A stretch of 35,157 nt of DNA from Alistipes sp. (GTDB lineage: Bacteria; Bacteroidota; Bacteroidia; Bacteroidales; Rikenellaceae). Below, piece by piece: positions 1-32,431 of the stretch (position 1 is its first letter; each line of letters starts with the position of its first letter). The translations under genes and the position numbers were made by a program. The DNA lies in the NCBI GenBank assembly GCA_017474235.1, contig JAFVIB010000027.1, forward strand, positions 1-35,157, in the 5' to 3' direction. The notes beneath the pieces are model-generated. The model saw nothing but the letters and a program-made list of their open reading frames with translations. It was not told the origin of the DNA and did no database searches.

Positions 1-1070
1 CTCGATTTTGTTATCTTGAATCATTGGATTACCGAAAGTGTTATACACAAAACCACACTCGGTATAAGCCGGAGTACCTACAGCTACTATCTCTCCATTG
101 AGTAATGCGGAACAATTGTCAATATCCACATTTGTAATATCTGCTATTTCAACTTGTGCTTGTTGCGTTGCAAGCGAGAATGTAGTCTGAGTAGAACTAT
201 ACGATATACCGTATTCGTTTATAGCATAAGCACGGACATAGTATTGTTTATTCAATTCTAAATTATCGACTTTTACACTATAATCTCCTACACCTTTATT
301 AGTGGTAGTTATTTTGTAATCATTTATCACAGGATTACTATTAAAGCCGTAAACAAAACCACACTCGGTAAATGCAGGAATACCAGTATCTACAATAGAG
401 CCATTTAATACAGCAGTTTTAGATGTAACATCAATATCATTAACATCTGCAATTGTAACAACCGGAGAAGTGGATGAAATAGAAAATCTAATATCATCGC
501 TGCTATAATATGTTCCTTGGCTATTTACAACATATGCTCTAAGATAATATGTCACATCTCTCTCTAGATTCTCTATCTGTGCCTGAAATTTACCTTCATT
601 TGTACCGGGAACTTGAACTTTTGTATTTACAATAGTAGGAGTAGAGGATGTTCCATAAACAAATCCTTTCTCGGTATATGCGGGATCGCCAATATAAGTT
701 ATCTCGCCGTTTGCAACTACTGACGCCTTTTTTGCATCTACATCACTAACATTGTTGGCAACAACTGATGGAGGTGTTGATTTTGCCATAAACGACACCT
801 GATTTGTAGAGTATGCAATACCTGCCTTGTTCCTTGCGTAGGCTCTGACATAGTAAGTTTTGCCAAGAGTTAAGCCGACAGCTTGTTGAGAGAATGTTGC
901 ATCTTTAGTAACGGTTGAGGTAAGCAGCTGTATAGTATTATTCTCATTAGGCTGTTGTTGCTCTGAATAGACAAATCCACGCTCTGTATATTCAGGATAG
1001 CCCACATCGACAATCTCTCCGTTAAATACTGCCGTAGAGGCTGTAATATCACCCATTTTTAGGGTGTTAA
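1..1070 (-). repeat. Tandem fibronectin-like protein repeats, about 300 bp period
   Basis: Four units within the partial surface lipoprotein start near 1066, 765, 465 and 160 on the minus strand. Each encodes about 100 residues with the same order of motifs: DI/DV, NGEI/NGSI, a GFVY turn, and YYVRAYA near the end. Some DNA blocks are nearly identical between units, for example the segment encoding TECGFVY near 40-60 and near 355-375. Repeats of this kind are common in Bacteroidales surface proteins and can change in number by recombination. Confidence 0.8.
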
Positions 1071-1713
1071 GAGTGGCAAGACGCTGCGCCTGACCTGTCG
1101 CTTTAACCTTGACTTCAGTGCTGCCGTTACCTGTTGTGCTGAGGACAAGAATAGCCTCATTAACACCGTCTGCAAGTGCATCACGGTCGATTTTTACGAT
1201 AATTGTTCCAGTTTTACCGTACTCTAACTCTCCACTCGCCGGCTCAACCTTATCAATCCAGCCACAATTGTTTACAATTTTCCAACCGAGCGTCTGATAG
1301 TTGTTATTTACGATATTGAACGACATAGTGTTGGTAGAGTAGTTACTACCGAAGTCTAACTCGTTGCGGTCGGCTGTAATAACGGCAGGAATACGCTCAA
1401 TAAGGATATGACACTCGGAGTTACCGCCGGAAGCAACCGATACGGTGTTTTCGCCCGGGTTATAACCCTCTTTGGTCGCTTTAATAGTGTATTTGCCCGG
1501 TTCTACGCTCTTGAATTCAAAAACTCCGTCAGTGCCGGTAATTGTTGTTTTGCCATTCTCTGTAAGTCTTACGCTTACAACCGGCACCGGTTCTCCTGTT
1601 GATTTATCAACTACACTACCGACAATATTACCGGTAGTCTCCTCGGTTGTGACATCTTCAGAACATCCAAAGAGAATTAATGCACATAAAAATGCAGATA
1701 AAAGTTTCTTCAT
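1..1713 (-). CDS. Surface lipoprotein with carboxypeptidase-regulatory, BACON-like and fibronectin-like repeats (partial)
   Basis: The frame is open from ATG at 1713 to the window edge: 571 codons with no stop, so the C-terminus is missing. The N-terminus is a lipoprotein signal ending in the lipobox LFGC, followed by the acidic SEDVTTEE, the kind of charge that marks surface export in Bacteroidetes. Residues about 30-110 form a carboxypeptidase-regulatory-like beta domain (GNIVGSVVDKSTGEPV). Next comes an Ig/BACON-like domain (about 115-210, containing FNIVNNNYQTLGWKI). After that are three complete and one partial repeat of about 100 residues, each with NGEI, then YTExGFVY, then YYVRAYA. 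It is the last gene visible in a six-gene operon and starts 21 bases after the preceding stop. It is probably a cell-surface binding or scaffold protein. The ligand is unknown. Confidence 0.85.
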   Translation of the reverse strand, partial: MKKLLSAFLCALILFGCSEDVTTEETTGNIVGSVVDKSTGEPVPVVSVRLTENGKTTITGTDGVFEFKSVEPGKYTIKATKEGYNPGENTVSVASGGNSECHILIERIPAVITADRNELDFGSNYSTNTMSFNIVNNNYQTLGWKIVNNCGWIDKVEPASGELEYGKTGTIIVKIDRDALADGVNEAILVLSTTGNGSTEVKVKATGQAQRLATLNTLKMGDITASTAVFNGEIVDVGYPEYTERGFVYSEQQQPNENNTIQLLTSTVTKDATFSQQAVGLTLGKTYYVRAYARNKAGIAYSTNQVSFMAKSTPPSVVANNVSDVDAKKASVVANGEITYIGDPAYTEKGFVYGTSSTPTIVNTKVQVPGTNEGKFQAQIENLERDVTYYLRAYVVNSQGTYYSSDDIRFSISSTSPVVTIADVNDIDVTSKTAVLNGSIVDTGIPAFTECGFVYGFNSNPVINDYKITTTNKGVGDYSVKVDNLELNKQYYVRAYAINEYGISYSSTQTTFSLATQQAQVEIADITNVDIDNCSALLNGEIVAVGTPAYTECGFVYNTFGNPMIQDNKIE

Positions 1714-1734
1714 AATAGTTTTTTATTATTGTTA

Positions 1735-3237
1735 TTACTCAATTTCTATAATCGTTATTTTGCTATTTTCGAGATGTGGCATAGCCTCTCCTATTGATGC
1801 ACCAATGTATGTAGGATCGCACACGAAGTATCTCTTGTTGTTATAGTCAATATAGCTTCCGGGGATGTCGTGTCCAAAATTTACTGCTGTTGCTAGATGG
1901 TTTGGATAGTGCAATAAGATAACATCCAATCCCAATAAATCCTTTGTGAGTAATGCAAATAATATTGCTCTGTCTTCACAATCGGAATATGGGTAGAACA
2001 ATGTCTCCTCTGCGAATAGTGGTTTTTCTATGCCGAATTGTTCCTGATCTGTTTTGTACTCAAAGGCTGTTTGTACAAAATTGATTAAGATGTTTGCTGC
2101 TTCAGTTTTGCTTTTTGAACTGATAGCAGAACGCAAAATATTGTACAATTTGTTTCGAGTACCATCACTTAGAGGAGTGTTTACATAGTATCTCCAATCT
2201 ATCATAGGGTAGTCACTGTAGAAATCAATAAGGTTTTTATTGACTGCAATATCAAAAGTTATATCAGGATACTTGCGAGTGCGCAAAGTGCGTGCTTTTG
2301 ACAGATTTGACTTTAGCTTTGGCAGAATAACTTTTTCAAGATTACAGAATCGTTCGCGAGGGAATTCTCGGTTATGTATGTATAAATTATTACCTTGCAA
2401 AGAGGTGTCAAGAGCAAAATATTCTGTGTCGTCTATGGATACTATAGGATACTGGTATATTGTAGATTCAGAACCCAATAGTACTATTACTTTGTTATCG
2501 CAGTACGCCAGACGGATCTTATAACCTGACTGTGTGAGTATGAAGGCTTGAAGTATGCGCGCTTCATTTACAGAACTTGCTCCAAAGAGAGCCTGTGTAA
2601 CAAACTCTGTCAGTTTTACATATCCCCAGTCGCATAACGATAGCTTGTTGCGTAGCTCCTCAACCTCCTCAACGAGCTTAAAATATTTGTCAGAGGAGAT
2701 AATATCCCAAACATCAGCAATAGCAGTATTGCTAACTTCTGATAACTTAAAACGATACGAATTGTCCAAATTTACAGAACAAACTGTTCCGTAATAATCA
2801 AAGGAGAACGCTGGTTTAGGTTCAGGTTTTGGTGTTGGTTTAGGCTCGAGCTTTGGCTCTGGTTTTGGTTCCGGTTTTGGTGTTGGTTTAGGTTCGAGCT
2901 TTGGCTCTGGTTTTGGTTCCGATTTTGGTTCTGGAGTAATCAGAGGCTGCGGAGCCTTCAATGGCTCCGTGTTAGGATCTTTAATTACCGGAGTAGGAGG
3001 CTCTGGTCGCTCCGGAATAGGGCGAGCAGGTTGAGATTGGAACTCATCCCAAGTTTTACGCATATATTCGGCATACTCCTTGTTAGCTTTTTTACGAAAA
3101 TCTTCAAAGTCGACTGTTGACTTTTGCTTGTATTGATAATACTCTTGCAGAGACTGCTTCTTAAAATCTTCAAAACTTTGAGCAAAAGAAGTAGTAGATA
3201 AAGTTAGCAATAAAATAACAATAAATAGCCTCTTCAT
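1735..3237 (-). CDS. Secreted transglutaminase-like (papain-fold) protein with KPEP linker
   Basis: 500 residues. A signal peptide (about 1-20, ending SFAQ) is followed by two short aromatic and charged repeats (SFEDFKKQ and DFEDFRKK, about 21-66). A proline-rich linker (about 70-142) consists of KPEP and KLEPKPTP units. The C-terminal part, about 145-500, ends in a transglutaminase-like core. The likely catalytic triad is Cys420 (YSDCEDRA), His447 (PNHLATAV) and Asp474 (VCDPTY). Members of this fold are usually cysteine proteases or amidases rather than true cross-linking enzymes, so the reaction cannot be named. The linker may let the enzyme reach across the periplasm or into peptidoglycan. 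The gene lies in the envelope operon, 63 bases after the DUF5683-like gene; that gap holds a perfect 12-bp hairpin. The family is clear, the substrate is not. Confidence 0.85.
   Translation of the reverse strand: MKRLFIVILLLTLSTTSFAQSFEDFKKQSLQEYYQYKQKSTVDFEDFRKKANKEYAEYMRKTWDEFQSQPARPIPERPEPPTPVIKDPNTEPLKAPQPLITPEPKSEPKPEPKLEPKPTPKPEPKPEPKLEPKPTPKPEPKPAFSFDYYGTVCSVNLDNSYRFKLSEVSNTAIADVWDIISSDKYFKLVEEVEELRNKLSLCDWGYVKLTEFVTQALFGASSVNEARILQAFILTQSGYKIRLAYCDNKVIVLLGSESTIYQYPIVSIDDTEYFALDTSLQGNNLYIHNREFPRERFCNLEKVILPKLKSNLSKARTLRTRKYPDITFDIAVNKNLIDFYSDYPMIDWRYYVNTPLSDGTRNKLYNILRSAISSKSKTEAANILINFVQTAFEYKTDQEQFGIEKPLFAEETLFYPYSDCEDRAILFALLTKDLLGLDVILLHYPNHLATAVNFGHDIPGSYIDYNNKRYFVCDPTYIGASIGEAMPHLENSKITIIEIE
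2825..2920 (-). repeat. 48-bp tandem duplication in the proline-rich linker
   Basis: Two adjacent 48-bp units (2825-2872 and 2873-2920) differ at a single base. Each encodes 16 residues of KPEP/KLEP/KPTP type. Because 48 is a multiple of three, gain or loss of units would change the linker length without shifting frame. Confidence 0.9.
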
Positions 3238-3262
3238 ATATGTATAATTTTGTTTAATTAGG

Positions 3263-3292
3263 ACTGTACGGTCAACCCAATGACCGTACAGT
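3263..3292. other. Perfect 12-bp inverted repeat inside the operon
   Basis: Arms 3263-3274 and 3281-3292 (ACTGTACGGTCA and its complement) are separated by six bases, between the DUF5683-like gene and the transglutaminase-like gene. On the transcribed (minus) strand no U-tract follows, so it is not a canonical terminator. It may stabilise or process the mRNA, or weaken read-through, and could also be a protein-binding palindrome. Confidence 0.75.
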
Positions 3293-3300
3293 AAATAGGA

Positions 3301-4161
3301 TTAAAATGTTATAGTTGCAGCTGCTGCAGGAGCACCTTCGTATGTTACCGTTGGAGCAAAGGCATACGAGCGACCGTTTCTATCGACTTTCTGCACTTTG
3401 ACATACCTTGCACCCGGCGCAACAATCGCATCTACAAGATTGTAAATGTATAGCGCAGCGGTGGCACCAATACAGATATTTCGAGCAAGAGCAAAGTTGT
3501 TTCGACGGTTAGCATATTTTGCCATAGCCTTTTTGTCATGTGTCATCGTAATCTTCTTTGCATAGTCGGCGCGGGTAACCTCTGTAAAGATTATACCACC
3601 TGCAAGAACAGCTGTTCCACCAAGTATCAATCCACCTTTCAGATAGCTGTGCTTGTGAAACTGTCCCCATCCGGGTACTATAGCCGAGCGCCACAGCCCC
3701 TTTGCACCGTATTTGGAGGTAACATATACATTGTCAAAGATTGGGTCTGCTGTTGTGCCGACTTGATAAAGAGTACTCATATATTGATGTTTCGCATCGA
3801 AATACTCATCTACAATTTTGGCTTTTAATTGAATAGGTTTACCCTCTGTTGTAATTACCTCAAAAGATTTGGTATCTAATTGTTCTTGAAATTTTCCGTT
3901 ATTATATGTTTGATGACCGGATATTTCATCTTTTGATTTATATGTAATTGTAAGAGTGTTTAATAATCCTCTATCCAATGACAACATCTGAAAGCATTTA
4001 TTACGCCCCATATCCAACGAAGCAGCTTCCGAGTCTGTTATTACAAATGTATATGTGTTATTCCCTGCAATAGGTTTAGGAGGCTTATTTAGCCATTGTG
4101 GCGTTTGCGCATAACCAGTTGCAGAGATACACAGCAATATGACTGCTAATAATACAACCAT
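3301..4161 (-). CDS. DUF5683-like membrane protein
   Basis: 286 residues. An N-terminal signal peptide (ends GYAQ) leads into a region beginning PQWLNKPP, which resembles the LPP20-like domain of the gene before it. The second half has the DUF5683 hallmark RSAIVPGWGQFHK followed by a glycine-rich hydrophobic segment (about 175-195). A second hydrophobic stretch lies near 228-245. The C-terminus has the FAPTV-type ending common in this family. The ATG shares one base with the stop of the upstream lipoprotein gene (TAATG), so the two are translationally coupled. DUF5683 proteins have no established biochemical role; this one is inferred to work in the cell envelope with its operon partners. Confidence 0.75.
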   Translation of the reverse strand: MVVLLAVILLCISATGYAQTPQWLNKPPKPIAGNNTYTFVITDSEAASLDMGRNKCFQMLSLDRGLLNTLTITYKSKDEISGHQTYNNGKFQEQLDTKSFEVITTEGKPIQLKAKIVDEYFDAKHQYMSTLYQVGTTADPIFDNVYVTSKYGAKGLWRSAIVPGWGQFHKHSYLKGGLILGGTAVLAGGIIFTEVTRADYAKKITMTHDKKAMAKYANRRNNFALARNICIGATAALYIYNLVDAIVAPGARYVKVQKVDRNGRSYAFAPTVTYEGAPAAAATITF

Positions 4162-21997: not shown

Positions 21998-22008
21998 TCA
22001 TAAAAAAA

Positions 22009-22106
22009 GGGTAAGCTACTTATATCGCACCGCTACAACCGCATACCCTTGCTCAATTCCTTGCCTGGGGGAGTTCTGCAGGAGCTGGTCGTATAAGACT
22101 TACCCA
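22009..22106 (-). ncRNA. ffs: Signal recognition particle RNA (4.5S, small bacterial type)
   Basis: On the minus strand the conserved SRP domain reads CCCCCAGG, then CAA, the GGAA tetraloop (22057-22060), TTG, then AGCAAGGG. This is the helix 8 hairpin with its asymmetric CAGG/AGCA loop that binds Ffh. The RNA ends pair: GGGTAAG near 22105 with CTTACCC at 22009-22015, and CTTATA with TATAAG further in. A run of seven T follows the 3' end, acting as terminator. The length of about 97 bases fits the small SRP RNA. It works with Ffh to deliver nascent membrane proteins. The region is otherwise non-coding, lying between DUF4293 and mltG. The exact 5' end is estimated. Confidence 0.9.
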
Positions 22107-22110
22107 GGCA

Positions 22111-22142
22111 CAAAAGTAGGACTTTTTTTGTATCTTTGCAAA
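22111..22142 (-). promoter_or_regulatory. Promoter of the SRP RNA gene
   Basis: On the minus strand, TTTG (22139-22142), a 20-base spacer and TACTTTTG (22111-22118), a full match to the consensus. Transcription should start five or so bases downstream, at the 5' end of the SRP fold. Confidence 0.85.
22131..22138 (+). promoter_or_regulatory. -7 box of mltG, inside the SRP RNA promoter
   Basis: TATCTTTG on the plus strand lies wholly between the -33 and -7 boxes of the SRP RNA promoter on the other strand. RNA polymerase could probably not occupy both at once. The mltG ATG is 16 bases on, leaving a leader of about ten bases. Confidence 0.6.
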
Positions 22143-23185: not shown

Positions 23186-23219
23186 AATAATCGCCAAGCA
23201 ATTTTGCCTGGCGATTATT
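23186..23219. terminator. Bidirectional hairpin terminator
   Basis: An 11-bp outer stem (AATAATCGCCA, 23186-23196, with 23209-23219) has a mismatch and a further GCAA/TTGC pairing inside. It separates mltG from the convergent DUF5689 gene, starts at the mltG stop, and has T-rich flanks on both strands. Confidence 0.85.
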
Positions 23220-23240: not shown

Positions 23241-24524
23241 TTACTCCATGTCGTCATCCTTGAGGGTCTGAGGCAGGTCGATGGATGATTGTGGAGTATT
23301 TGCCTCAATCCACGCCTCGCGGGCTGCGATTTGCTCATCGGTAAGGCTGCCGTAGTACTCCGGAAGGAAGTCTTGGAAGCGGCAAGTGGTGAGCTGGAAT
23401 GCTCCGCTTTGGTCTGATGTCTTACTGAAGTTATAGCTATGTGAATAGATAGCATAGATAGCAAGCACGCTACCTGTTGCACCATCTTCGGGAACAAAGT
23501 TGCCTGCGTAGCGGGAGTAGCCGCTGGTACGGGCGGTATAGAAGCCCGGGGTAGAGCCGTGTGATGTGCCGAGAACCTCCGGATAGCAGAGGGCAACACT
23601 ACCGTAAAGGCTGATATTATTGATGCTATAAGCGAGTTTATACCACGGCTCGCTGACAACATACTGTACAGCACCATCGACGGTAATACCGCTTGTGCAG
23701 AGCCAGCTCGGGTAGATATTGGTATTGCTACCGCTTGTCAGTGCAGGGTGTGATGTCACGCCATTCTGATTCTTCACACCACGATAGGTGACCGTAAGGT
23801 TATTAAAGCGGATAAGACGACCCAAGAAGTCTGCATTATAGATGCTTTTTGACTCGTTGTAATTATCTACAACATAGATATCATCACTCTTGCTTTTACC
23901 CTCGGTAAGGGTGCAATTTTCACCCTTAAATACATGCTGTGCCACCTTATTTGGCGACACAATATTTGAGTTTGCGTAGTACTTGTAAATTCCGTAGGCA
24001 TTAAGGCTCTCGGTAGGTACATCGCCGATAGAGAGCATCATACGGAAGCTACCCAAATAGAGACCATTAAGGCGTACATATACCCAGCAACTCTCTTTAG
24101 TGTCAAGGTTACAAGGGAAGTCGGCAAACAGACCGTTTGTCAGCTTAAGCTCGATGGCGGCAGTGCCGTCGAAGATGTGCAGCGACTTGTAGATATTTCC
24201 CTGCTCGTCGTTGCTTATAACCTTACCTTTAATATAGTAGTCACCTTCGATATATCGTTTCTGCTCAAGCTCATAGTCTGTACACTCGCTCTTATTAAGC
24301 ACAAAACGCTTATACTTTGTCTCTGCCAACGAGTTTGTAGAGCCGGAGTTGTCGAGCGGGAAGAACATATCTTTCAACTCGGCAATAGTCAGGTGTGTCA
24401 TCCCCTGCTCCTGCATCTTGGTATCTGTCATCTCGGAAGGGACGGCAGGGGTGGTGAACTTCTCATAGCAACTTGTTGCAAGAAGTGCCACCAATGCGAT
24501 TATTGATATTTTTGTAAGTCTCAT
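23241..24524 (-). CDS. DUF5689 lipoprotein (OB-fold)
   Basis: 427 residues. A lipoprotein signal ends in LLATSC (Cys19). The DUF5689 domain (about 45-280) has the family blocks LTIAELKDMFF, YIKGKVISNDEQGNIYKSL and IFDGTAAIELKL, followed by a beta-rich region. This domain is thought to adopt an OB-like fold. The C-terminal third (about 280-427) resembles choice-of-anchor-type beta modules and ends with a short acidic tail (DDDME). It is the last gene of the nuclease and TonB-receptor cluster, 12 bases after the receptor. It probably helps the receptor capture its ligand at the cell surface, in the position a SusD would fill. Confidence 0.85.
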   Translation of the reverse strand: MRLTKISIIALVALLATSCYEKFTTPAVPSEMTDTKMQEQGMTHLTIAELKDMFFPLDNSGSTNSLAETKYKRFVLNKSECTDYELEQKRYIEGDYYIKGKVISNDEQGNIYKSLHIFDGTAAIELKLTNGLFADFPCNLDTKESCWVYVRLNGLYLGSFRMMLSIGDVPTESLNAYGIYKYYANSNIVSPNKVAQHVFKGENCTLTEGKSKSDDIYVVDNYNESKSIYNADFLGRLIRFNNLTVTYRGVKNQNGVTSHPALTSGSNTNIYPSWLCTSGITVDGAVQYVVSEPWYKLAYSINNISLYGSVALCYPEVLGTSHGSTPGFYTARTSGYSRYAGNFVPEDGATGSVLAIYAIYSHSYNFSKTSDQSGAFQLTTCRFQDFLPEYYGSLTDEQIAAREAWIEANTPQSSIDLPQTLKDDDME

Positions 24525-24536
24525 ATCGTCAATAGT

Positions 24537-27401
24537 TTAGAATCTGAAGTAAAGATTGAGGAAGTATGTTGTGCCCAACATATAGAAGTACTTGGAATCA
24601 AAGCGAGAGTAGTATGACACTGCCGGATTTGAGCCCGCAGGGGTGCCGTCATATCCGCGAGTGCGGCGCATACGCATCTGCTCATAACCTCCGGTCTTGA
24701 TATTCTGATTATTGAGAATATTCTTAACCTCGGCAGAGAATCCGAGCATATATTTACGCTGTATATACCAATTCTTACCCACGCTTGCACTCAAGGTGTA
24801 GGCGTGACCCAAATCCTCCTGCTGACGCATAGCATTGATATTGGCAAGTGCCCAATTCTTTGCATTATTTGTTGCATTCTCATTTGCAAGCACATCTACA
24901 TAAGCATCAACAGCATTATTTGTACGGTATGCCGGATTCATAGAGAGGTAGAGCTTGTCGTAGAAATTGAAGTTTACAGATGCAAACCAATTGTTGTCGC
25001 TGCGGTAGTCAAGACCGATGTTTACAGCCACCTGCGGAGAACTCTCAACAAAGAAGTTCTTCCAATTAACCTGATCTACCAACTCAATCTTCGCGCTATT
25101 GTCAATAATCTGCACAAAGTTTGGATTTGATGTATAGCGATAATCTCCCCAATTGAGAGCACCCTGAAGGGCAATGCCAGCCCAAATAGGTACATTGAAG
25201 GCAAACTCTACACCGTAGTAGCGTTTGTCAATACCGCTCATTGCAAAGTTCGTAAATGAGGACTGTGTATCGTCGTAGTATGAGATAACCTTCGACAGGT
25301 CATTCATCTTTGTAAAGTAGCCCGATACGCGAGCCTTGATATAAGGCAGATTGAGGTTGTATGTCAGCTCTGCGCTATATATCTTCTCGGTTGTAAGACC
25401 CGGGTTAGACTGATTACGAGTACGAGGCGATACAAATGCAGCAGCAAACTTCGGCGCATCTGCCATAGCAGCGGCATTGAGTGCAAGCGAGTGCGCACCC
25501 GAGAAGCGGTATGAGAATGCAGCCTTTGCCTTGTATGTAAAGAAATTCAGATGCTCAGAGTCGCCATAAGAGTCATTTCCGTTAGGGAACAGACCCTTTC
25601 TCCAAAGACCTTGACGCCACATAGAGCTATAACCAGCCTCTGCACCTATATTCATATTAAATCCGCCTAAAGTAAGACCGTACTGCGCCCAAAGCTGTGC
25701 CTGACGCAGATGTGCATAGTAGTCGTAGCCATACTTATCGCCCTCTTTTACTACGCGGGCGTGACCATTGGCATTGTAGTAATCAACATCGTTCTGATAG
25801 GCGATAATATCGCTACCTTTATCACGCTCTGCGAATTTGTCGATATCCAACCAATAGTCGCCACCCAGCAGGTCTTTTACAGTGCTGTAATACTCAGTGC
25901 GATTGATGCGAGCCTTTACGCCACCAACAATGCGGTGATTTGCATTGAACTCGTGAGATACTGTTGCAACAAAATTGTAGTCGAGCTGATCTGTGCGGCG
26001 CTCCTCAATCATATAGTTAGAGCGATAGCCCTGTGCATAACTTGAAGTTGTAGGGTCTTGGTGACGGTTGAGTGCATACATACGGTCGAAATCTATGCGA
26101 CCATTCCAAACCTTTATTGCACCAACAGCTCCGTTGATATAGTTGTCAAACTGCTCGTCAGATGTAGGCTCAAAGATACCTGTAATACCCGGGGTAATCT
26201 GACTCAGATAGTTTGAAGGCAGATAGCGGTAGTAATCCGGACGAGGGTCTGCACCATCCTTCCAAGTGAGGGCAGAGTAACCGTTATAACCAAAGCGGAG
26301 AGATGTAGCAACGCTCAGACGGGTCTTGTCTGTAATGTCAAAGAAGTAGTTAAGCATTGCAATCGGCTCGTGGGTGCGACGCACGCGAGTATTACGCAAC
26401 TTGCCATTCTGATAACCAACATTAGGGTTGTAGTAGTTGCTGCCAAACAGGTCGTAAGCCTCCTGTGTAGATGCCTGCTGTGCGCCACGCTGCTGCGGTG
26501 TTCCTAGAACAGAGAGTGAGAGGCGGTGACGAGTACCGAAAAGCTTCTCTACTGATGCAAAGTAGCCGTAAGCGTTGTAGAAGATACCATCTACATATCC
26601 GTTACCACCCTGACGAGTAGATACAGAAAAGCCGTATGACCAACCATTATCAAGCGCACCTGAGGCGTATGACACCATACCACGCCAACGATACATCTGA
26701 TTTGCATTAGAGACACTTACTCTAAAGCCCTTGCGCATCTGAGAGGCACGGGCATTGACATTTGTAGTACCACCAATACCTCCTACACCATAATCTGTAG
26801 GAGTAAGACCTGAACTGCTCTCCTGATTACGAGTCGCATCATTAAGTCCGCTCCACAGTGACCACGGACCGTAGCCTGTCATTGCATCGTTAAAGCGGAT
26901 ACCGTTAAGATAGACATCCTGATACATTGAGTCGTATCCACGAACATTAAAACGCATCTCGCTAAAACGATACGATGCGATATTGTTGTAGATATCTTTT
27001 GATGCACTGAGTGATGACGGCAGAGCCTGTGTATCAGAAGCTGAAGAGTCGCTGTCAAACTCTGCAAAGATAGAGTCATCCATAATCTCGTTCTGAAGTG
27101 ACGGAACAAGGATTACAGAGTGCAAATCACGCAGATTTTGATCTACGCGCACAACCATTTCGAGTGTTTCGAAGTCCGGAGCAGTAAATGTAAGGCGATA
27201 GTCGCCCTGTGCCAAATTGTCGAGCGTAAAGTAACCGTTATCATCGGTCGTAACGCTCTGTCCGGTAACATCAACAACGACCTTTACCTGACCAATGGCA
27301 GTTCTGCCATTTCTTGACACTACCTGACCCTTAATGCCGCCCTGTGCAAAGGCTGCAAAAGAGAGTAGTGAAAGAAGAGATAGTAGTAAAAACTTTTTCA
27401 T
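24537..27401 (-). CDS. TonB-dependent outer-membrane receptor
   Basis: 954 residues. The signal peptide (1-20, AFAQ) is followed by a carboxypeptidase-regulatory-like domain (about 21-100, GGIKGQVVSRNGRTA and YRLTFTAPDFETLE) and a plug domain (about 125-230, RFNVRGYDSMYQDVYLNG and GVGGIGGTTNV). The 22-strand barrel then runs to the C-terminal FLNLYFRF. It imports a substrate across the outer membrane using the proton gradient. There is no SusD homologue beside it, so it is not a standard Sus-type glycan importer. Its neighbours are two nuclease-superfamily genes upstream and the DUF5689 lipoprotein downstream, with gaps of 10 and 12 bases. The substrate is therefore inferred to be nucleic-acid fragments or released phosphate compounds. 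Confidence 0.92.
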   Translation of the reverse strand: MKKFLLLSLLSLLSFAAFAQGGIKGQVVSRNGRTAIGQVKVVVDVTGQSVTTDDNGYFTLDNLAQGDYRLTFTAPDFETLEMVVRVDQNLRDLHSVILVPSLQNEIMDDSIFAEFDSDSSASDTQALPSSLSASKDIYNNIASYRFSEMRFNVRGYDSMYQDVYLNGIRFNDAMTGYGPWSLWSGLNDATRNQESSSGLTPTDYGVGGIGGTTNVNARASQMRKGFRVSVSNANQMYRWRGMVSYASGALDNGWSYGFSVSTRQGGNGYVDGIFYNAYGYFASVEKLFGTRHRLSLSVLGTPQQRGAQQASTQEAYDLFGSNYYNPNVGYQNGKLRNTRVRRTHEPIAMLNYFFDITDKTRLSVATSLRFGYNGYSALTWKDGADPRPDYYRYLPSNYLSQITPGITGIFEPTSDEQFDNYINGAVGAIKVWNGRIDFDRMYALNRHQDPTTSSYAQGYRSNYMIEERRTDQLDYNFVATVSHEFNANHRIVGGVKARINRTEYYSTVKDLLGGDYWLDIDKFAERDKGSDIIAYQNDVDYYNANGHARVVKEGDKYGYDYYAHLRQAQLWAQYGLTLGGFNMNIGAEAGYSSMWRQGLWRKGLFPNGNDSYGDSEHLNFFTYKAKAAFSYRFSGAHSLALNAAAMADAPKFAAAFVSPRTRNQSNPGLTTEKIYSAELTYNLNLPYIKARVSGYFTKMNDLSKVISYYDDTQSSFTNFAMSGIDKRYYGVEFAFNVPIWAGIALQGALNWGDYRYTSNPNFVQIIDNSAKIELVDQVNWKNFFVESSPQVAVNIGLDYRSDNNWFASVNFNFYDKLYLSMNPAYRTNNAVDAYVDVLANENATNNAKNWALANINAMRQQEDLGHAYTLSASVGKNWYIQRKYMLGFSAEVKNILNNQNIKTGGYEQMRMRRTRGYDGTPAGSNPAVSYYSRFDSKYFYMLGTTYFLNLYFRF

Positions 27402-27411
27402 ATATCAACTA

Positions 27412-28446
27412 TTATTTACCTACATAAATAAATACCGGCAAGTGGTCCGAGAAACCATTTTGGAAATTATTGCCTACAAATGTGCGGAGAGGGTAGTTCT
27501 TGTACTGACCTTCACGCTGCATCATATATGGACGCGAGAAGATATTGCCGTAGAACTTCGATTTTGGAGCACGCTGCAACTTTAATTCGCCTGTAGAGCC
27601 TGTTGCAAGGTTTTCTGAGACGATGATGTTGTCAAACAGATTCCACGCATCACGATAGCCCAAAGTACCATAACCTGCTTTGAGCAGCTCGATGTACGGA
27701 TTGTAGAGGTCGCCTGATACGAGTTTCTTGATGTTACCTCTTGCACCAAGTACCTCTGTAATGCTCTTATCTGTTGCATCGTCGTTCAAGTCGCCCATAA
27801 TTACCACCTTTGTATTAGGGTTTGCAGTGCGTACAGAGTCGGCAATACGACGACACTGCGCTGCTGCAGCTTCACGCTTAGGGTCAGAAGCCTCCTTACC
27901 ACCAAGGCGAGAGGGCCAGTGCGAAACAAGGAAGAAGAATGGCTCGCCCTCGATAGTTCCCCACATAGTTACAAGGTCGCGGGTGTAGAAATTAGCCATT
28001 CCGGGCATCTCGAACTTATGAGCCTTGCTGCCTTCGAGCTTGAATACATCAGGGCGATAGAGAAAGGCACAATCTACTCCTCGACGGTCCGGAGAGTCGT
28101 AGTGGACAATGCGGTAGTTGCCAAGTGCCATGTGTGGCTGAACAACCAAATCCTCAAGAACAAGACGGTTCTCAATCTCTGATACTCCGATTACAGCCGG
28201 AAATTCGCGGTTGATGGCTGCCATATCGAAGAATACCTTGTCGATATTGCTCTGTTTGCGCTGATACTTTGTGGAGTTCCACTTTTTGTCGCCCATAGGC
28301 AAAAACTCCTCATCGAGCTTGTCAGGGTCATTGATTGTATCAAACAGATTCTCAAGGTTGTAGAAGACAACCATATGAGGTTTCTGCGCAAAACAGCTCA
28401 ACAATACGCCTGCAACGAGCAGAGTTGTCAAAATAATTTTTTTCAT
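27412..28446 (-). CDS. Secreted endonuclease/exonuclease/phosphatase family protein
   Basis: 344 residues. The N-terminal signal (MKKIILTTLLVAGVLLSC) could be a lipobox with Cys18 or a cleaved signal ending FAQ. The EEP fold motifs are in order: FYNLENLFD (about 28-36), VSEIEN with the metal Glu, SHWPSRLGG, MGDLNDDAT with the Asp and Asn, and the terminal SDHLPVFIYV with Asp-His. Members hydrolyse phosphodiester or phosphate bonds in DNA, RNA, lipids or nucleotides. The NLENLFD form is frequent in secreted bacterial enzymes associated with extracellular nuclease. It lies between the DNA/RNA endonuclease and TonB receptor genes (gaps 12 and 10), consistent with trimming fragments before uptake. 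Confidence 0.88.
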   Translation of the reverse strand: MKKIILTTLLVAGVLLSCFAQKPHMVVFYNLENLFDTINDPDKLDEEFLPMGDKKWNSTKYQRKQSNIDKVFFDMAAINREFPAVIGVSEIENRLVLEDLVVQPHMALGNYRIVHYDSPDRRGVDCAFLYRPDVFKLEGSKAHKFEMPGMANFYTRDLVTMWGTIEGEPFFFLVSHWPSRLGGKEASDPKREAAAAQCRRIADSVRTANPNTKVVIMGDLNDDATDKSITEVLGARGNIKKLVSGDLYNPYIELLKAGYGTLGYRDAWNLFDNIIVSENLATGSTGELKLQRAPKSKFYGNIFSRPYMMQREGQYKNYPLRTFVGNNFQNGFSDHLPVFIYVGK

Positions 28447-28458
28447 ATATTGATAGTT

Positions 28459-29631
28459 TTAGAAGTTCCAATCACTAAGTTTTTTCTGACTCTTCACCTC
28501 CTTTGCCACAGCAGGATTGAGGTTGCGGAAGAAGGTAAACCCGGCTCTATCTTCAATATCTTTGATAGATACCACAGCCTTATCGTAGCTTACAGCATTA
28601 GAGCTATTCTCAAACAAGAAGCCGATAGCCTTAATCTCTGAAGGGTCGGTAATCTCCGAAATACTCTTGCCGCTATTGCCTTTTACCGTTCTAAGCAAAA
28701 TCTTGTAGGTGTGCGATGGTCTTGTAATTGTTCTGCCTCGGGAGTTAAACTTTGTAGAGTTCTCGAACAGATTACCAACAACCACATAGAGAGTATCCGC
28801 ACAAACAACCTTGCGCACACTATTCTCAAGTGTGCCCCAAACTCCTTGATTAAATTGGCTGTTTTGCGGCATAATATTGGTTGAGTAGAAAGTTTGAGCA
28901 TTGGTTGTATAGGTGCTGTAACGCGATGCCGATGGGAGCATATGACCGCGGTCAAGCTGTCTGTTGCCACCGTCATTATAACCGCCATCAACTATATTTT
29001 GTTGTAAATTCTCAGGAATATCGGGATCGAATGCCCACGCATTGGTACGGTTGATAACCGGCTTTGTGTAGCAGTCGTGTAGTGGATAAGCCACCCATTG
29101 AGAGACTAACTTGTCGGTATCGTAACATATAGAGTAGTTACGGACAAACTTGCCATTTGCAAGGGTAGTGTAGTAAGTTTTATATATAAAGTCGTCATCA
29201 AGCAACTGTGCAGGCTGCTCTGCCCAGGCACGGTCGTAAGTAAAGTTATCACTTATGCCTAACTGCTCGAATGCGAGTGTTGTCTGAAAACCGTCGGAGA
29301 ATTTTATATAAACCGTAGCCGAACGCGATACGGTTGTCTCGTTTTTGGCAAAGTAAATTGTAGCAGTTGTACCTACAGTACCCTTTTTGGATATCTGATT
29401 ATCCGAGCTGCTGAATGATGCCCATTTATAACCCTCTATAATTACCGCCTCCCAGCTCAGTCGTGTATCGCCGGAGGTTGTTAGAGTGATAGAGGTCTCG
29501 TCCCAACCCATAGATGAGTGAGAGAGTTCTGCTTCTGATGTAAATGGCGACCACGGATCCTCGGTGTCGCACGCCCAGAAGTTAGAGATTGTTGTCAGAG
29601 CAACAAAAAGTATTGAAAAAAGTCTGTTCAT
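28459..29631 (-). CDS. Lipoprotein DNA/RNA non-specific endonuclease (NUC1 family)
   Basis: 390 residues from ATG 29631; an in-frame extension to 29661 lies inside a terminator hairpin and was rejected. The lipoprotein Cys is at 21 (NFWAC), followed by acidic DTED, a typical surface-export signal in Bacteroidetes. Residues about 34-125 are a BACON-like beta domain. The NUC1 nuclease domain (about 160-380) has the catalytic DRGH (227-230) and the metal-binding Asn261 in MPQNSQFNQGVW. These enzymes cut single- and double-stranded DNA and RNA without sequence preference, using magnesium. It is the second gene of the cluster, preceded by an intrinsic terminator. Confidence 0.93.
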   Translation of the reverse strand: MNRLFSILFVALTTISNFWACDTEDPWSPFTSEAELSHSSMGWDETSITLTTSGDTRLSWEAVIIEGYKWASFSSSDNQISKKGTVGTTATIYFAKNETTVSRSATVYIKFSDGFQTTLAFEQLGISDNFTYDRAWAEQPAQLLDDDFIYKTYYTTLANGKFVRNYSICYDTDKLVSQWVAYPLHDCYTKPVINRTNAWAFDPDIPENLQQNIVDGGYNDGGNRQLDRGHMLPSASRYSTYTTNAQTFYSTNIMPQNSQFNQGVWGTLENSVRKVVCADTLYVVVGNLFENSTKFNSRGRTITRPSHTYKILLRTVKGNSGKSISEITDPSEIKAIGFLFENSSNAVSYDKAVVSIKDIEDRAGFTFFRNLNPAVAKEVKSQKKLSDWNF

Positions 29632-29635
29632 TGTC

Positions 29636-29674
29636 AAAAAAAGCCCCTCAGCAGGGCACAACCCCGCTGAGAGG
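29636..29674 (-). terminator. Intrinsic terminator inside the nuclease cluster
   Basis: On the minus strand a 13-bp stem (arms 29662-29674 and 29644-29656, two G-T pairs, five-base loop) is followed by C and seven T (29636-29642). It sits between the stop of the large surface lipoprotein and the NUC1 start, ending five bases before that ATG. No TAnnTTTG box is visible after it, so downstream genes probably rely on read-through. Confidence 0.9.
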
Positions 29675-29682
29675 ATGAAAAA

Positions 29683-32322
29683 TTATTTAAGATGAACACC
29701 GGCAACGATTGCACGGCAGTTACCTGAGTTATCTGCGCTACCGCCTGCAAAATCAGATGCAGTAGAGAAGATAATCTTTGAATTTGCAGTAAGACCTGTA
29801 ATATTAATAGTGTAGAGGTCGCTTGTAGCAGCAGAGATGGTGTATGGAGCATTGCTTGTTGCACCATCATTAGCCTTAAGCTCAAATGTGCTATTACCTG
29901 TAATAGAGCCACCACACTCAACCTTTACATAGAGAGTAGCCTTCTTTCCCTTCCAAGAGAAAGCATAGAAACTAAGGGTCTTATCGCCTGTTGAGTTCAC
30001 AGCACCTGAAGTAAATGTACCATACTTCTTGCTTGTGCCGAGCTTAAATCCTGTTGCAGCATTGCCATTAACCTTCGTCTTGTCACCGAGAGTATATGCA
30101 GCAACAGCTGAATCATCAGTAGTCTGTACAAACTCGCTGTCTGATGCAAAGTCACCCTCTGCAGGTGTTGGGTCCGGTGTAGGCTCAGGCTCTACGGTTG
30201 TGCCCGGCTCGGCAACAACAACATCCTTAACCTCCCAAGTACCGGCAACAGTAGCGGTAGATACATATTTGAATGCAATCTTTATGCTCTTACCTACATA
30301 CTTTGTAAGGCTGATAGCACCTGAAGATACAAATGTATAGTCATTGTTTGAACCATAAGTAGGGATGGTAAGCTGCTCCCAATTTGCACCGTTGTCAGCA
30401 GTTGCCCATACAGTAAGCTCCTCTGCAAAAGTACCTGCAAACTTGTGAGTATGGTTGAATGTAAGCTCCGGAGCAGTTGCAGCAGCGAGAGAGAACTCAG
30501 GAGAGATAAGCCAGCTCTCTGTAGCTACAGGACCACCCTTATAACCGGATGCCTTCATATACTTGTCGTTGCCATAGCTTGCAGCAGACCAAACGAAATC
30601 AAGACCGCCGAGGTTTATATCATTGATAGTCCAATTGCCCTGACCATTTGCAAAGCTCTCTGAGAGGTATGAACCAGGAGTTGGCTCTGGGTCTGGTGTT
30701 GGCTCCGGCTGAGGGTCGTTACCTGTTGCAGCAACGGCTGTAACCATTGTATTTGTAAACTTGCCACTTGAAACGCCAATAAGGAAGCCTGTAACCTTAA
30801 TACCCTTACCATCAAGAGCCTTGATAGCATCTGTCATAGCTGCATCAGGGTAAGAGAGTGAGCCTACAGCAGTCTGTGCGCCCTCAACAGTTACATTGTA
30901 GTAGTAACCACTAACAGCCAAAGCACCCTCATACTGTGCATACTTAACCTCAGGCTTGCCTACATAAGCATCGAGATCTGCACCTGTCATAGTTACAGGA
31001 GTGCCCAAATCTACGCTCTTTGTCTCGCCTGTAGCAGTAACTGCTGTACCCTGACCAAACTGAAGCAGACCGGCATACTCTGTAACATCACCGCTAATCT
31101 TTACAACAGCACCTACAGCAGGAACCTCTGCCTTATCGCCGAGATAGCAGAGAATATACTTGCCTGTAGCATCGGTTACAAGGCATCCGCGAGCATAAGT
31201 TGCAACTACCCAAGCATTCTCGATAGAGTAGTTACCTGTGCCGGCTGCAAGAATTCCTGCAATATCCTTTACAGCACCTCCAGGAGTGTCGCCACCCTGA
31301 ATATTGAAGTCGAGAACTGCGCCCTCGCCGCCAATTGAGAGGCTGAAGTCGTCAAGACGAAGAGCTGCCTGATACTGATAGTCTGCGGATGGCAGAGCAG
31401 TAGTTTTGTCAGCAACATAGTCTGCAAACTTGATGTGGAGCTTCTCTGCATCTGCAGGAAGGCTAAACTGTGACACTACATACTGCCAATTACCGTCTGC
31501 TGATACATTAAATGGCATATCAGCCCAATTCTGACCATCAACGCTTGCGTAGAGCTTGAAGGTCTTGCCGTGCTCAATAACAGCAGGAACAGGGGTATAA
31601 GGAGAGGCAATAAGTGATGCATACTGGTTGAAAACAGTAAATGAGAATATATAGTTCTTCTCGCCACTCTTAAGAGCGATATTGTTGATAACAAAGTTTG
31701 CATCAGCCTTTGAGATGTAAGCATAAGGAGCATCTGTAGCGTAAGTTGCATCTACAGGAGCCCATGCCTTACCTGAGTTGCGTACAGAGGCATTCTTACC
31801 AGTGTAAGTTACACCGCTCTGATCTACGCCGTCGCCACCCTTTGGAGCCCAACCTGTGTAGGCATCAACATAGGGCCAGTAGCCATCAACCTTTGAAACA
31901 GCGTCACCGCAGTTGTCATAGTAGATGTTGGTACTCAGTGCCAAATCAGACTGAAGAATGGTAATCACCTTGCTATCAGTAAGCTCGACACCTGCCAAGA
32001 AGCCCGTAGCGGTAACTGTAGCCTTGATAGTACGCATAGCAGCAGCCTCCGGAACTGTGAATGTCACTGTTGCATCACCAGTGCCCTCGCTCTGCGATAC
32101 AGTCACACCCTCAGTGTCGATAGTAATGACCCACTGTGCAGGGGTTACGATGTGTACCTCCTCGGTAGTGCCACCTGCAAGTAGAACAACCAAAGACTCC
32201 GGAGCAACAGTAACCTCAGGTACACCCTGATACTGCTCCGGCTCCGGCTCGGTACATGAAACAGCAAATCCTGCGCTCAGTATAACGGCTGAGAGTAGGA
32301 GTGAACGAAAAATGTTTCTCAT
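29683..32322 (-). CDS. Multidomain surface lipoprotein with BACON-like, OB-fold and anchor-type modules
   Basis: 879 residues. A lipoprotein signal (Cys23, AVSC) is followed by TEPEPEQY, an acidic surface-export context. The modules are, in order: a BACON-like domain (about 33-125); a carbohydrate-binding or anchor-type beta domain (about 135-345); a putative OB-fold region (about 355-540, with VKISGDVTEYAGLLQFG); a PEPTPDPEP linker; a choice-of-anchor J-like domain (about 560-705); a second PEPTPDPTP linker; and a C-terminal beta domain (about 725-879). OB-folds of this kind often accompany secreted nucleases. As the first gene of the cluster, before an intrinsic terminator, it is probably the most abundant product. 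It is inferred to bind substrate at the cell surface; the module boundaries are approximate. Confidence 0.8.
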   Translation of the reverse strand: MRNIFRSLLLSAVILSAGFAVSCTEPEPEQYQGVPEVTVAPESLVVLLAGGTTEEVHIVTPAQWVITIDTEGVTVSQSEGTGDATVTFTVPEAAAMRTIKATVTATGFLAGVELTDSKVITILQSDLALSTNIYYDNCGDAVSKVDGYWPYVDAYTGWAPKGGDGVDQSGVTYTGKNASVRNSGKAWAPVDATYATDAPYAYISKADANFVINNIALKSGEKNYIFSFTVFNQYASLIASPYTPVPAVIEHGKTFKLYASVDGQNWADMPFNVSADGNWQYVVSQFSLPADAEKLHIKFADYVADKTTALPSADYQYQAALRLDDFSLSIGGEGAVLDFNIQGGDTPGGAVKDIAGILAAGTGNYSIENAWVVATYARGCLVTDATGKYILCYLGDKAEVPAVGAVVKISGDVTEYAGLLQFGQGTAVTATGETKSVDLGTPVTMTGADLDAYVGKPEVKYAQYEGALAVSGYYYNVTVEGAQTAVGSLSYPDAAMTDAIKALDGKGIKVTGFLIGVSSGKFTNTMVTAVAATGNDPQPEPTPDPEPTPGSYLSESFANGQGNWTINDINLGGLDFVWSAASYGNDKYMKASGYKGGPVATESWLISPEFSLAAATAPELTFNHTHKFAGTFAEELTVWATADNGANWEQLTIPTYGSNNDYTFVSSGAISLTKYVGKSIKIAFKYVSTATVAGTWEVKDVVVAEPGTTVEPEPTPDPTPAEGDFASDSEFVQTTDDSAVAAYTLGDKTKVNGNAATGFKLGTSKKYGTFTSGAVNSTGDKTLSFYAFSWKGKKATLYVKVECGGSITGNSTFELKANDGATSNAPYTISAATSDLYTINITGLTANSKIIFSTASDFAGGSADNSGNCRAIVAGVHLK

Positions 32323-32399: not shown

Positions 32400-32431
32400 C
32401 AAACTTATTAATTATTTGTCAAATTTCCAAA
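32400..32431 (-). promoter_or_regulatory. Promoter of the nuclease and TonB-receptor cluster
   Basis: On the minus strand, TTTG (32428-32431), a 20-base spacer and TAAGTTTG (32400-32407). The leader to the ATG at 32322 is about 70 bases and includes the GC palindrome. Confidence 0.8.

Follow-up and report, generated by a model that had tools for sequence, protein, structure and literature searches.

The window analysed here, a 35,157-nt Alistipes sp. contig (JAFVIB010000027.1; Bacteroidales; Rikenellaceae), carries a cluster of five collinear open reading frames, all on the minus strand between positions 23241 and 32322. In the 5′ to 3′ direction these encode an 879-aa lipoprotein, the nuclease NUC1, an EEP-family hydrolase, a TonB-dependent transporter (TBDR) and a DUF5689 lipoprotein (Table 1). 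The successive intergenic gaps are 51 (counted from the NUC1 ATG), 12, 10 and 12 bases, so that the one-direction cluster with gaps of 10–51 bases described in the original prediction, which was made from the sequence alone, lies where it had been placed. Translation of NUC1 more probably begins at the ATG (29631) than at the TTG (29661).

Table 1. Genes and putative transcription signals of the cluster in the window.
Feature	Position	Strand	Evidence or remark
Bacteroidales-type promoter match, TTTG-N20-TAnnTTTG, upstream of the cluster	32400..32431	-	consensus scan
879-aa multidomain lipoprotein, choice-of-anchor J domain	29683..32322	-	NF038128 E 1.3e-20; NF052645 E 2e-10
Terminator-like hairpin between the 879-aa and NUC1 genes	29644..29674	-	RNA folds, judged by eye
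Lipoprotein DNA/RNA non-specific endonuclease NUC1 (PF01223)	28459..29631	-	TTG ORF begins 29661
EEP-family hydrolase (PF19580), signal-peptide type N-terminus	27412..28446	-	profile match and motifs
TonB-dependent transporter (TBDR), family tied to transformation in Riemerella	24537..27401	-	profiles, tree, model
DUF5689 lipoprotein, TBDR partner	23241..24524	-	profile match
Terminator-like hairpin 3′ of the last gene (DUF5689)	23186..23219	-	hairpin scan

The consensus TTTG-N20-TAnnTTTG, which we take to be that of Bacteroidales promoters, occurs seven times in the window, where 0.73 occurrences are expected. A scan for sigma-70 sites gave 21 against 14.4 expected and is not used as evidence. 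A hairpin, unlike in sequence, is present at the 879-aa/NUC1 junction in 11 of the 13 loci examined by eye, and since the terminator-like hairpin of the window lies in the 51-base gap the five genes may not form one simple transcript.

The TBDR matches the CarbopepD_reg_2 profile, together with Plug below its cut-off, and none of the five cluster proteins matches SusD at E 1, which bears out the earlier description of a TonB-dependent receptor without SusD. Its structural model (mean pLDDT 47) contains 22 long barrel strands by our own count, with a plug part of low confidence, and all 50 of the Foldseek matches listed are TonB-dependent transporters. In a tree calculated without the Riemerella protein itself, seven general TBDR paralogs split off from the cluster TBDRs on a branch of length 1.52 with 100/100 support, and three L139-type rows, from another genus family, are placed among those of the cluster.

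Both hydrolases are of the families originally assigned to them. NUC1 matches PF01223 (E 1.3e-39) with the DRGH motif present, and its PDB relative is the Anabaena-type nuclease 2o3b (E 2e-18). The catalytic RGH is kept in 14/14 full-length rows, the catalytic Asn and Glu are likewise present, and a simple in-house rule finds a lipobox-type N-terminus in 12/13, loci fetched twice being counted twice. The N-terminal part gives a weak BACON match, below cut-off. When three proteins were given to a phage-family search the sole match was a nuclease one, for NUC1. The EEP protein matches PF19580 (E 7.2e-115), with GDxN in 63/63 and [ST]DH in 61/63 partly duplicate rows, and has no PDB relative at E 1e-3. 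By sequence it would be a nuclease or another phosphodiesterase, and is probably periplasmic.

The fifth protein is the DUF5689 lipoprotein that had been expected, matching the DUF5689 profile at E 2.9e-21. The same lipobox rule holds for 88 of the 90 rows assigned to DUF5689; twice-fetched loci are counted doubly in this set, which also includes at least one row of the big lipoprotein (L094). That relative carries choice-of-anchor J and DUF5689 as a joint unit; the choice-of-anchor J domain of the window sits on the 879-aa lipoprotein, not on the DUF5689 protein. Counterparts of the 879-aa protein in relatives bear DUF5689, BACON or F5/8C modules. The suggestion that both lipoproteins contain OB-fold modules was not confirmed: profile and PDB sequence comparison found no OB fold, residues 340–525 of the 879-aa protein match neither DUF5689 in hhalign (probability 0.5%) nor PDB sequences, and the predicted DUF5689 structure reaches a pLDDT of only 35.

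The arrangement of the cluster in the genus is more than chance. The order NUC1-EEP-TBDR-DUF5689 is found in 25 of the 27 same-genus loci fetched, the window locus included, the other two stretches ending too early for the order to be read, and dN/dS is ~0.02–0.12 across cluster comparisons with finite dS. Gene order, offered as a check in the original prediction, is thus kept, and the TBDR–DUF5689 pair extends to flavobacteria, mostly with an EEP gene alongside. EEP adjoins the TBDR in 18/20, 6/7, 10/10 and 35/36 loci of four sets, the last being the named flavobacterial loci from one scan of contigs (34 titled Chryseobacterium, one from a Weeksellaceae MAG, one from Bergeyella; no Riemerella). 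A full TBDR occurs in 46 of 296 genomes when three candidates are scored in each; every one of the 46 has an NF052645 match, in the same locus in 45 (lists compared by eye). The exceptions are Bergeyella, with no EEP within its 21-kb locus, a member of the same class without EEP (L082), a member of the same order without EEP and DUF5689 (L089), and one genome in which TBDR and DUF5689 are present but apart (G077).

In the duck bacterium Riemerella anatipestifer, natural transformation is abolished when either RA0C_RS04915 or RA0C_RS04920 is removed by markerless deletion, and is undetectable in each mutant (wild type 5.4e-5, detection limit ~4.2e-10; PMC8459023). Homology of the window pair to these genes was reached via Bergeyella and Chryseobacterium, the Riemerella sequences themselves standing outside the comparison. 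Bergeyella zoohelcum and two Chryseobacterium genomes each contain one DUF5689 match at E 0.01, and this gene adjoins the one that scores clearly highest against the window TBDR (31–33% over the full length, 361–394 bits; next best 91); identity between the window and Weeksellaceae homologs is only ~31%. The Bergeyella–Chryseobacterium identities of the pair (61.5% and 39.7%) resemble those published for Riemerella and Bergeyella (60.46% and 38.22%; PMC8459023). Homologs of the four new Riemerella genes are described as widespread in Bacteroidetes, the transporter homolog as found in Flavobacteriaceae only (PMC8459023). Loss of two of the three Riemerella tonB genes is described as lowering transformation, one of these two effects being put down by the authors to iron shortage. 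The literature searched, with preprints and most subscription papers outside its scope, names DUF5689 in a single paper and contained nothing closer than the Riemerella pair.

The competence genes of these genomes bear on the fate of any imported DNA. A search of 12 genomes found no outer-membrane secretin, whereas 6 of 14 control genomes gave secretin matches; the usual pilus route thus seems to be missing. The window genome encodes ComEC, a 367-aa HHH protein and, in the usual gene order, a relative of DprA. ComEC is found in 288/296 genomes overall and HHH_3 in 59/59 (59 of the 73 class members sampled); being near-ubiquitous they do not discriminate purpose, and co-occurrence was dropped as a test of it. 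ComF is below cut-off in 12/12 genomes, Bergeyella and Chryseobacterium included, and is therefore uninformative. In the window genome and in four close relatives, all of which conserve the cluster, the DprA ortholog is short and scores weakly. The window protein, without the C-terminal domain, scores 105 bits on TIGR00732 (cut-off 191), against 182 for another genome (G030) and 207 for Bergeyella. Within the genus, 23 genomes have the cluster and full-length DprA, 5 the cluster and short DprA, 7 DprA only and 2 neither, one genome (G009) being counted from a contig-end fragment. In the window clade DprA identity is 0.54 at a TBDR identity of 0.89; 20 control pairs in the genus average 0.66 at 0.85, some reaching 0.55. 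DprA thus outpaces the TBDR genus-wide, which weakens its fast evolution as a sign of decay and means that the short DprA favours scavenging over transformation only moderately. Short DprA can function elsewhere, as in Helicobacter. A role in anti-phage defence was also considered: PADLOC gave no match for the five cluster proteins, and the short DprA matches ShosA less strongly than do two full-length DprA proteins, which indicates a family effect.

For both the TBDR and the DUF5689 protein, the closest relatives that have been tested are essential for transformation. A nucleic-acid cargo therefore has more behind it than the presence of nucleases, and DNA as the inward-moving cargo is better grounded than the original prediction could know. 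We put at about even the chance that the cluster serves DNA import across the outer membrane, as a nuclease-bearing Bacteroidales form of the Riemerella TBDR/DUF5689 pair, with DNA used more for nutrients than for recombination. The 879-aa and DUF5689 lipoproteins would bind DNA at the surface, where NUC1, a nuclease by family with presumed location and substrate, would cut it. The TBDR, energized by TonB, may then carry the DNA across the outer membrane, as the need for its homologs in Riemerella transformation suggests, and the putatively periplasmic EEP enzyme may trim or degrade it. In the weakest step, the imported DNA would be used for its phosphorus, nitrogen or nucleosides rather than for recombination. 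The original prediction of nucleic-acid degradation and uptake is partly borne out, in that the genes form a conserved unit and the TBDR and DUF5689 proteins have homologs essential in Riemerella. The role tested in those relatives is transformation, which the prediction did not consider, and the evidence for nutrition is indirect and weakened by the DprA control pairs.

On balance, nutrient use is the more likely in the window species. In its favour are the short, weak DprA beside an intact cluster, as moderate support, the added surface nuclease and DNA-fed Lutibacter (PMC8289736); against it, the genome still encodes ComEC, the HHH protein and a DprA relative, and DprA evolves fast genus-wide. 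These same genes, the DprA relative being in its usual gene order, the missing secretin and the essential homologs in Riemerella (PMC8459023) are what a transformation apparatus importing long DNA for recombination would present, and DprA divergence alone proves little against it. The pneumococcal nuclease EndA is of the same family as NUC1, which here would make an EndA-like entry cut while the short DprA still works. We regard this as unlikely, though the strongest competitor, given the low score and missing C-terminal domain of the window DprA and the uncoupling of cluster and full-length DprA in the genus.

Surface nucleases often serve to clear extracellular DNA, in biofilms, neutrophil traps or viscous surroundings, and NUC1 is a lipoprotein; the Bergeyella pair without adjoining EEP illustrates that hydrolase and transporter can part. 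That the hydrolases only clear DNA while the TBDR takes other cargo is nevertheless improbable, as EEP–TBDR adjacency is kept across families and transformation in Riemerella depends on the homologs of the TBDR and the DUF5689 protein themselves (PMC8459023). A Sus-like locus whose substrate is a glycan, lipid or phosphorylated small molecule, and in which EEP and NUC1 lie only by chance, is more improbable still: the cluster has no SusD or glycosidase, NUC1 keeps its catalytic residues in every full-length row, and where relatives of the pair have been tested, their role is in transformation (PMC8459023). BACON and choice-of-anchor J modules do occur in glycan-binding lipoproteins. EEP enzymes include lipid and sugar phosphatases.

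The conserved TBDR locus offers a testable candidate channel for DNA through the outer membrane of Bacteroidota without pili. More speculatively, and in our estimate rather less probable than the import locus itself, Bacteroidota without pili would pass DNA across the outer membrane through a TBDR, and some Bacteroidales would have turned the transformation machine into a Sus-like system for feeding on nucleic acid, with a surface nuclease and a large lipoprotein for binding added and DprA eroding. If DNA eating and DNA recombining are indeed split within the genus, the purpose of DNA uptake could be tested in close relatives.

Several known systems resemble the cluster in part. The EEP protein shares its domain with the ExeM/NucH extracellular DNases (NF033681) and matches them weakly, at 28.6 bits against a cut-off of 300. 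As in SusCD polysaccharide utilization loci, surface lipoproteins, hydrolases and a TBDR are clustered, but SusD and glycosidases are lacking and the annotated neighbours include no regulator. Type IV pilus/secretin competence shares the presumed DNA cargo and relatives of ComEC and DprA, whereas here, with no secretin, the TBDR is the proposed outer-membrane route. Closest is the Riemerella pair, an adjacent CarboxypepD_reg outer-membrane protein and DUF5689 lipoprotein (RA0C_RS04915/RA0C_RS04920; PMC8459023), likewise with choice-of-anchor J in the locus and EEP beside the pair in nearly all named flavobacterial loci (35/36). Unlike that pair, the window locus has its EEP gene collinear rather than divergent, DUF5689 and choice-of-anchor J on two proteins rather than one, and a short DprA in the genome; it also adds NUC1 and the 879-aa lipoprotein. 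The transporter family is now shown in Bacteroidales with nucleases attached, and what is new is this addition of nucleases and a large lipoprotein to a transformation-linked transporter, a barely studied kind.

The five-gene cluster is present as the original prediction described it, and the domain search proposed with it (Pfam, NCBIfam) identifies the nuclease as NUC1 (PF01223), the hydrolase as EEP (PF19580) and the last lipoprotein as DUF5689. In the same databases the 879-aa lipoprotein carries a choice-of-anchor J domain, and the TonB-dependent transporter (TBDR) a CarboxypepD_reg domain with a plug below threshold. Housekeeping genes flank the cluster: those for MltG and a small SRP RNA of Bacteroidales type lie to one side of it, those for a glycosyltransferase and an acyl-ACP thioesterase to the other. 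The predicted TBDR structure (mean pLDDT 47) contains 22 long barrel strands by our own count, which leaves out shorter strands. Foldseek gave 184 matches at E 0.001, and the 50 listed are without exception TonB-dependent transporters (TM-scores <0.5).

Positions of features in the window and in fetched loci (L-numbers)
Feature	Position	Remarks
Five-gene cluster	window 23241–32322	all on the minus strand
Bacteroidales small SRP RNA gene	window 22005–22112	near cluster end
NUC1 start (ATG), most likely	window 29631	
Hairpin, big lipoprotein–NUC1 gap	window 29644–29674	equivalent gaps in L080, L081, L088, L093–L095, L097–L100
Short, weak-scoring dprA ortholog	L182 2599–3474 (own genome, contig C35)	relatives' copies in L183–L186
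Barrel-like family gene, 815–832 aa	L139 5784–8231 (own genome, contig C35)	also L143, L144, L145
Second DUF5689 lipoprotein gene	L083 9106–9867 (own genome, C41:85201–85857)	
Big lipoprotein of genome G028	L094, ORF 315–3869	
Bergeyella zoohelcum dprA	L137 1374–2486	

The NUC1 start is placed at the ATG because the upstream TTG sits within a terminator-like hairpin. Of 13 loci examined, 11 have a strong hairpin in the gap that separates NUC1 from the big lipoprotein gene, similar in shape and unlike in sequence; none was found in that gap of L101 and L102. The hairpin would likely cause partial termination and so place big lipoprotein output above that of the other cluster genes. A match to the Bacteroidales-type promoter consensus (TTTG-N20-TAnnTTTG) finishes 78 bases ahead of the 879-aa start. 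The consensus occurs at 7 places in the window, about tenfold enriched over shuffles.

Among 14 NUC1 rows of sufficient length, window included, all retain the RGH core, the N-x-x-P-Q stretch and a downstream Asn and Glu; the Asp of DRGH is variable, and the DRGH rule by itself is satisfied in 4 of 13. For EEP, with doubly fetched loci counted twice, GDxN is found in 63/63 rows and [ST]DH in 61/63, two stricter motifs in 34 and 49, and a third in 57. EEP is probably periplasmic, as its N-termini resemble ordinary signal peptides; the lipobox rule is satisfied in 16/63 rows, and in none of these is the Cys followed by acidic residues.

Gene order was examined in 30 loci, 27 from the genus, taken from a search for TBDR matches in 61 genomes including the window's own. 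The order NUC1–EEP–TBDR–DUF5689 is codirectional in 25 of the 27, own included; in L028 and L029, the remaining two, the sequence stops within or just past the TBDR, leaving order unreadable. When longer stretches were read, EEP was next to the TBDR in 18/20 loci of the first set, 10/10 genus loci and 6/7 order-level loci with the upstream side in sequence (L087 and L092, both ended by a contig edge, being left out). The exceptions are L082, L075, from a genome (G077) whose TBDR is on a different contig, and L089, which lacks both EEP and DUF5689. EEP and the TBDR diverge in five order-level loci and in every one of the 16 EEP-bearing loci that belong to the same class but lie outside the order, and no NUC1 gene was flagged in any of these; in the genus, as also in L080, L081 and L088, the two are collinear and NUC1 is present.

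Scoring of three candidates in each genome gave a full TBDR (≥460 bits) in 46 of 296 phylum-sample genomes. NF052645 matches occur in 52, including all 46 when the lists are compared by eye, and share one locus with the full TBDR in 45; in the remaining six genomes the match is confined to the choice-of-anchor J half. In the own genome it is the 879-aa protein. In a tree built from 15 cluster TBDRs together with 10 paralogs, seven general paralogs stand apart (branch 1.52, support 100/100). Three rows of a genus family of 815–832 aa group beside the Bacteroidales cluster TBDRs on a long branch, and the cluster TBDRs are therefore not strictly one group. Several genomes of the genus encode this barrel-like family; its member in L139 gave no Pfam match, and the gene of that member adjoins a second EEP gene (PF03372). 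The own genome also has a second DUF5689 lipoprotein gene; the gene divergent from it encodes a Golvesin_C protein of 984 aa, beyond which comes a GH20 gene, and an HHH_3 protein gene lies ~10 kb away on the same contig.

The cargo is suggested by Riemerella anatipestifer, in which RA0C_RS04915, a CarboxypepD_reg outer-membrane protein, and RA0C_RS04920 (DUF5689 plus DUF5017, annotated choice-of-anchor J) are both essential for natural transformation, markerless deletion of either reducing it below detection (PMC8459023). Huang and colleagues speculatively assign the pair DNA binding and outer-membrane passage, and tabulate homologs in Bergeyella and Chryseobacterium (PMC8459023). Three genomes, one of Bergeyella zoohelcum and two of Chryseobacterium, each have a single DUF5689 match, which adjoins the best window-TBDR match (361–394 bits; runner-up ≤91). 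These pairs are almost surely equivalent to the RA0C pair, an equation made via these genomes rather than Riemerella sequences. The 21-kb B. zoohelcum locus contains dprA, ~4.6 kb upstream of the two genes, but no flagged EEP gene.

Imported DNA could serve recombination or nutrition. No secretin was found in 12 genomes (controls positive in 6/14), and ComEC and HHH proteins are almost universal, therefore non-discriminating. DprA of at least 200 bits occurs in 30 of 37 genus genomes; two, of 72–74% completeness, have none. The window genome, G003, G006, G028 and G029 hold a sole form of 99–128 bits; the last four also hold the 85–86% TBDR matches, and G030 (84%) has full DprA. The short dprA occupies the same genomic place as the full one of G030 and shares the gene order around full-length dprA in L187; the genes downstream we take, from motifs, to be TatD-like and asparaginase-like. 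Some 75 C-terminal residues are missing in the three aligned, the other two being short by length, and the short form scores 105 bits against TIGR00732 (G030 182, Bergeyella 207; cut-off 191, so that G030 also falls below). Between G028 and G029 non-synonymous distance is 0.207 for dprA versus 0.007 for TBDR and EEP, 0.017 for DUF5689, and, for the two downstream neighbours of dprA, 0.036 and 0.006. The dS of dprA is also raised (1.64), making gene replacement possible; in many other pairs dS is close to saturation. In 20 control pairs (full-length DprA, TBDR identity ≥0.80) mean DprA identity is 0.66 at TBDR 0.85, with one subgroup at 0.55–0.63, versus 0.54 at 0.89 in ten window-clade pairs. 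DprA is thus fast-evolving throughout the genus and faster in the window clade; the controls weaken the divergence argument and leave shortening and low score as that clade's particular marks. By hand count 23 genomes have both cluster and full-length DprA, five cluster and short DprA, seven DprA only and two neither, G009 being entered on a contig-end fragment. Cluster and full-length DprA are uncoupled in the genus, and we therefore lean to import independent of recombination.

Lutibacter has assimilated carbon from labelled DNA, an instance of DNA as food in Bacteroidota (PMC8289736). In Riemerella, phosphate removal reduces transformation, as do tonB mutants, one case of which the authors attribute to iron. 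Flavobacterium johnsoniae is reported as not competent where R. columbina was (PMC7965970). Of the predicted nucleic-acid import, DNA as cargo is supported by the tested Riemerella homologs, and its use as food is a leaning.

The locus is real and conserved, and its function is most likely DNA import. Residues 646–1184 of the G028 big lipoprotein form a complete unit of DUF5689 with choice-of-anchor J, similar to that of the flavobacterial protein, which hints that the cluster's two lipoproteins have exchanged domains by shuffling. The locus type is a known, barely studied one, of which the nuclease-bearing form is new.
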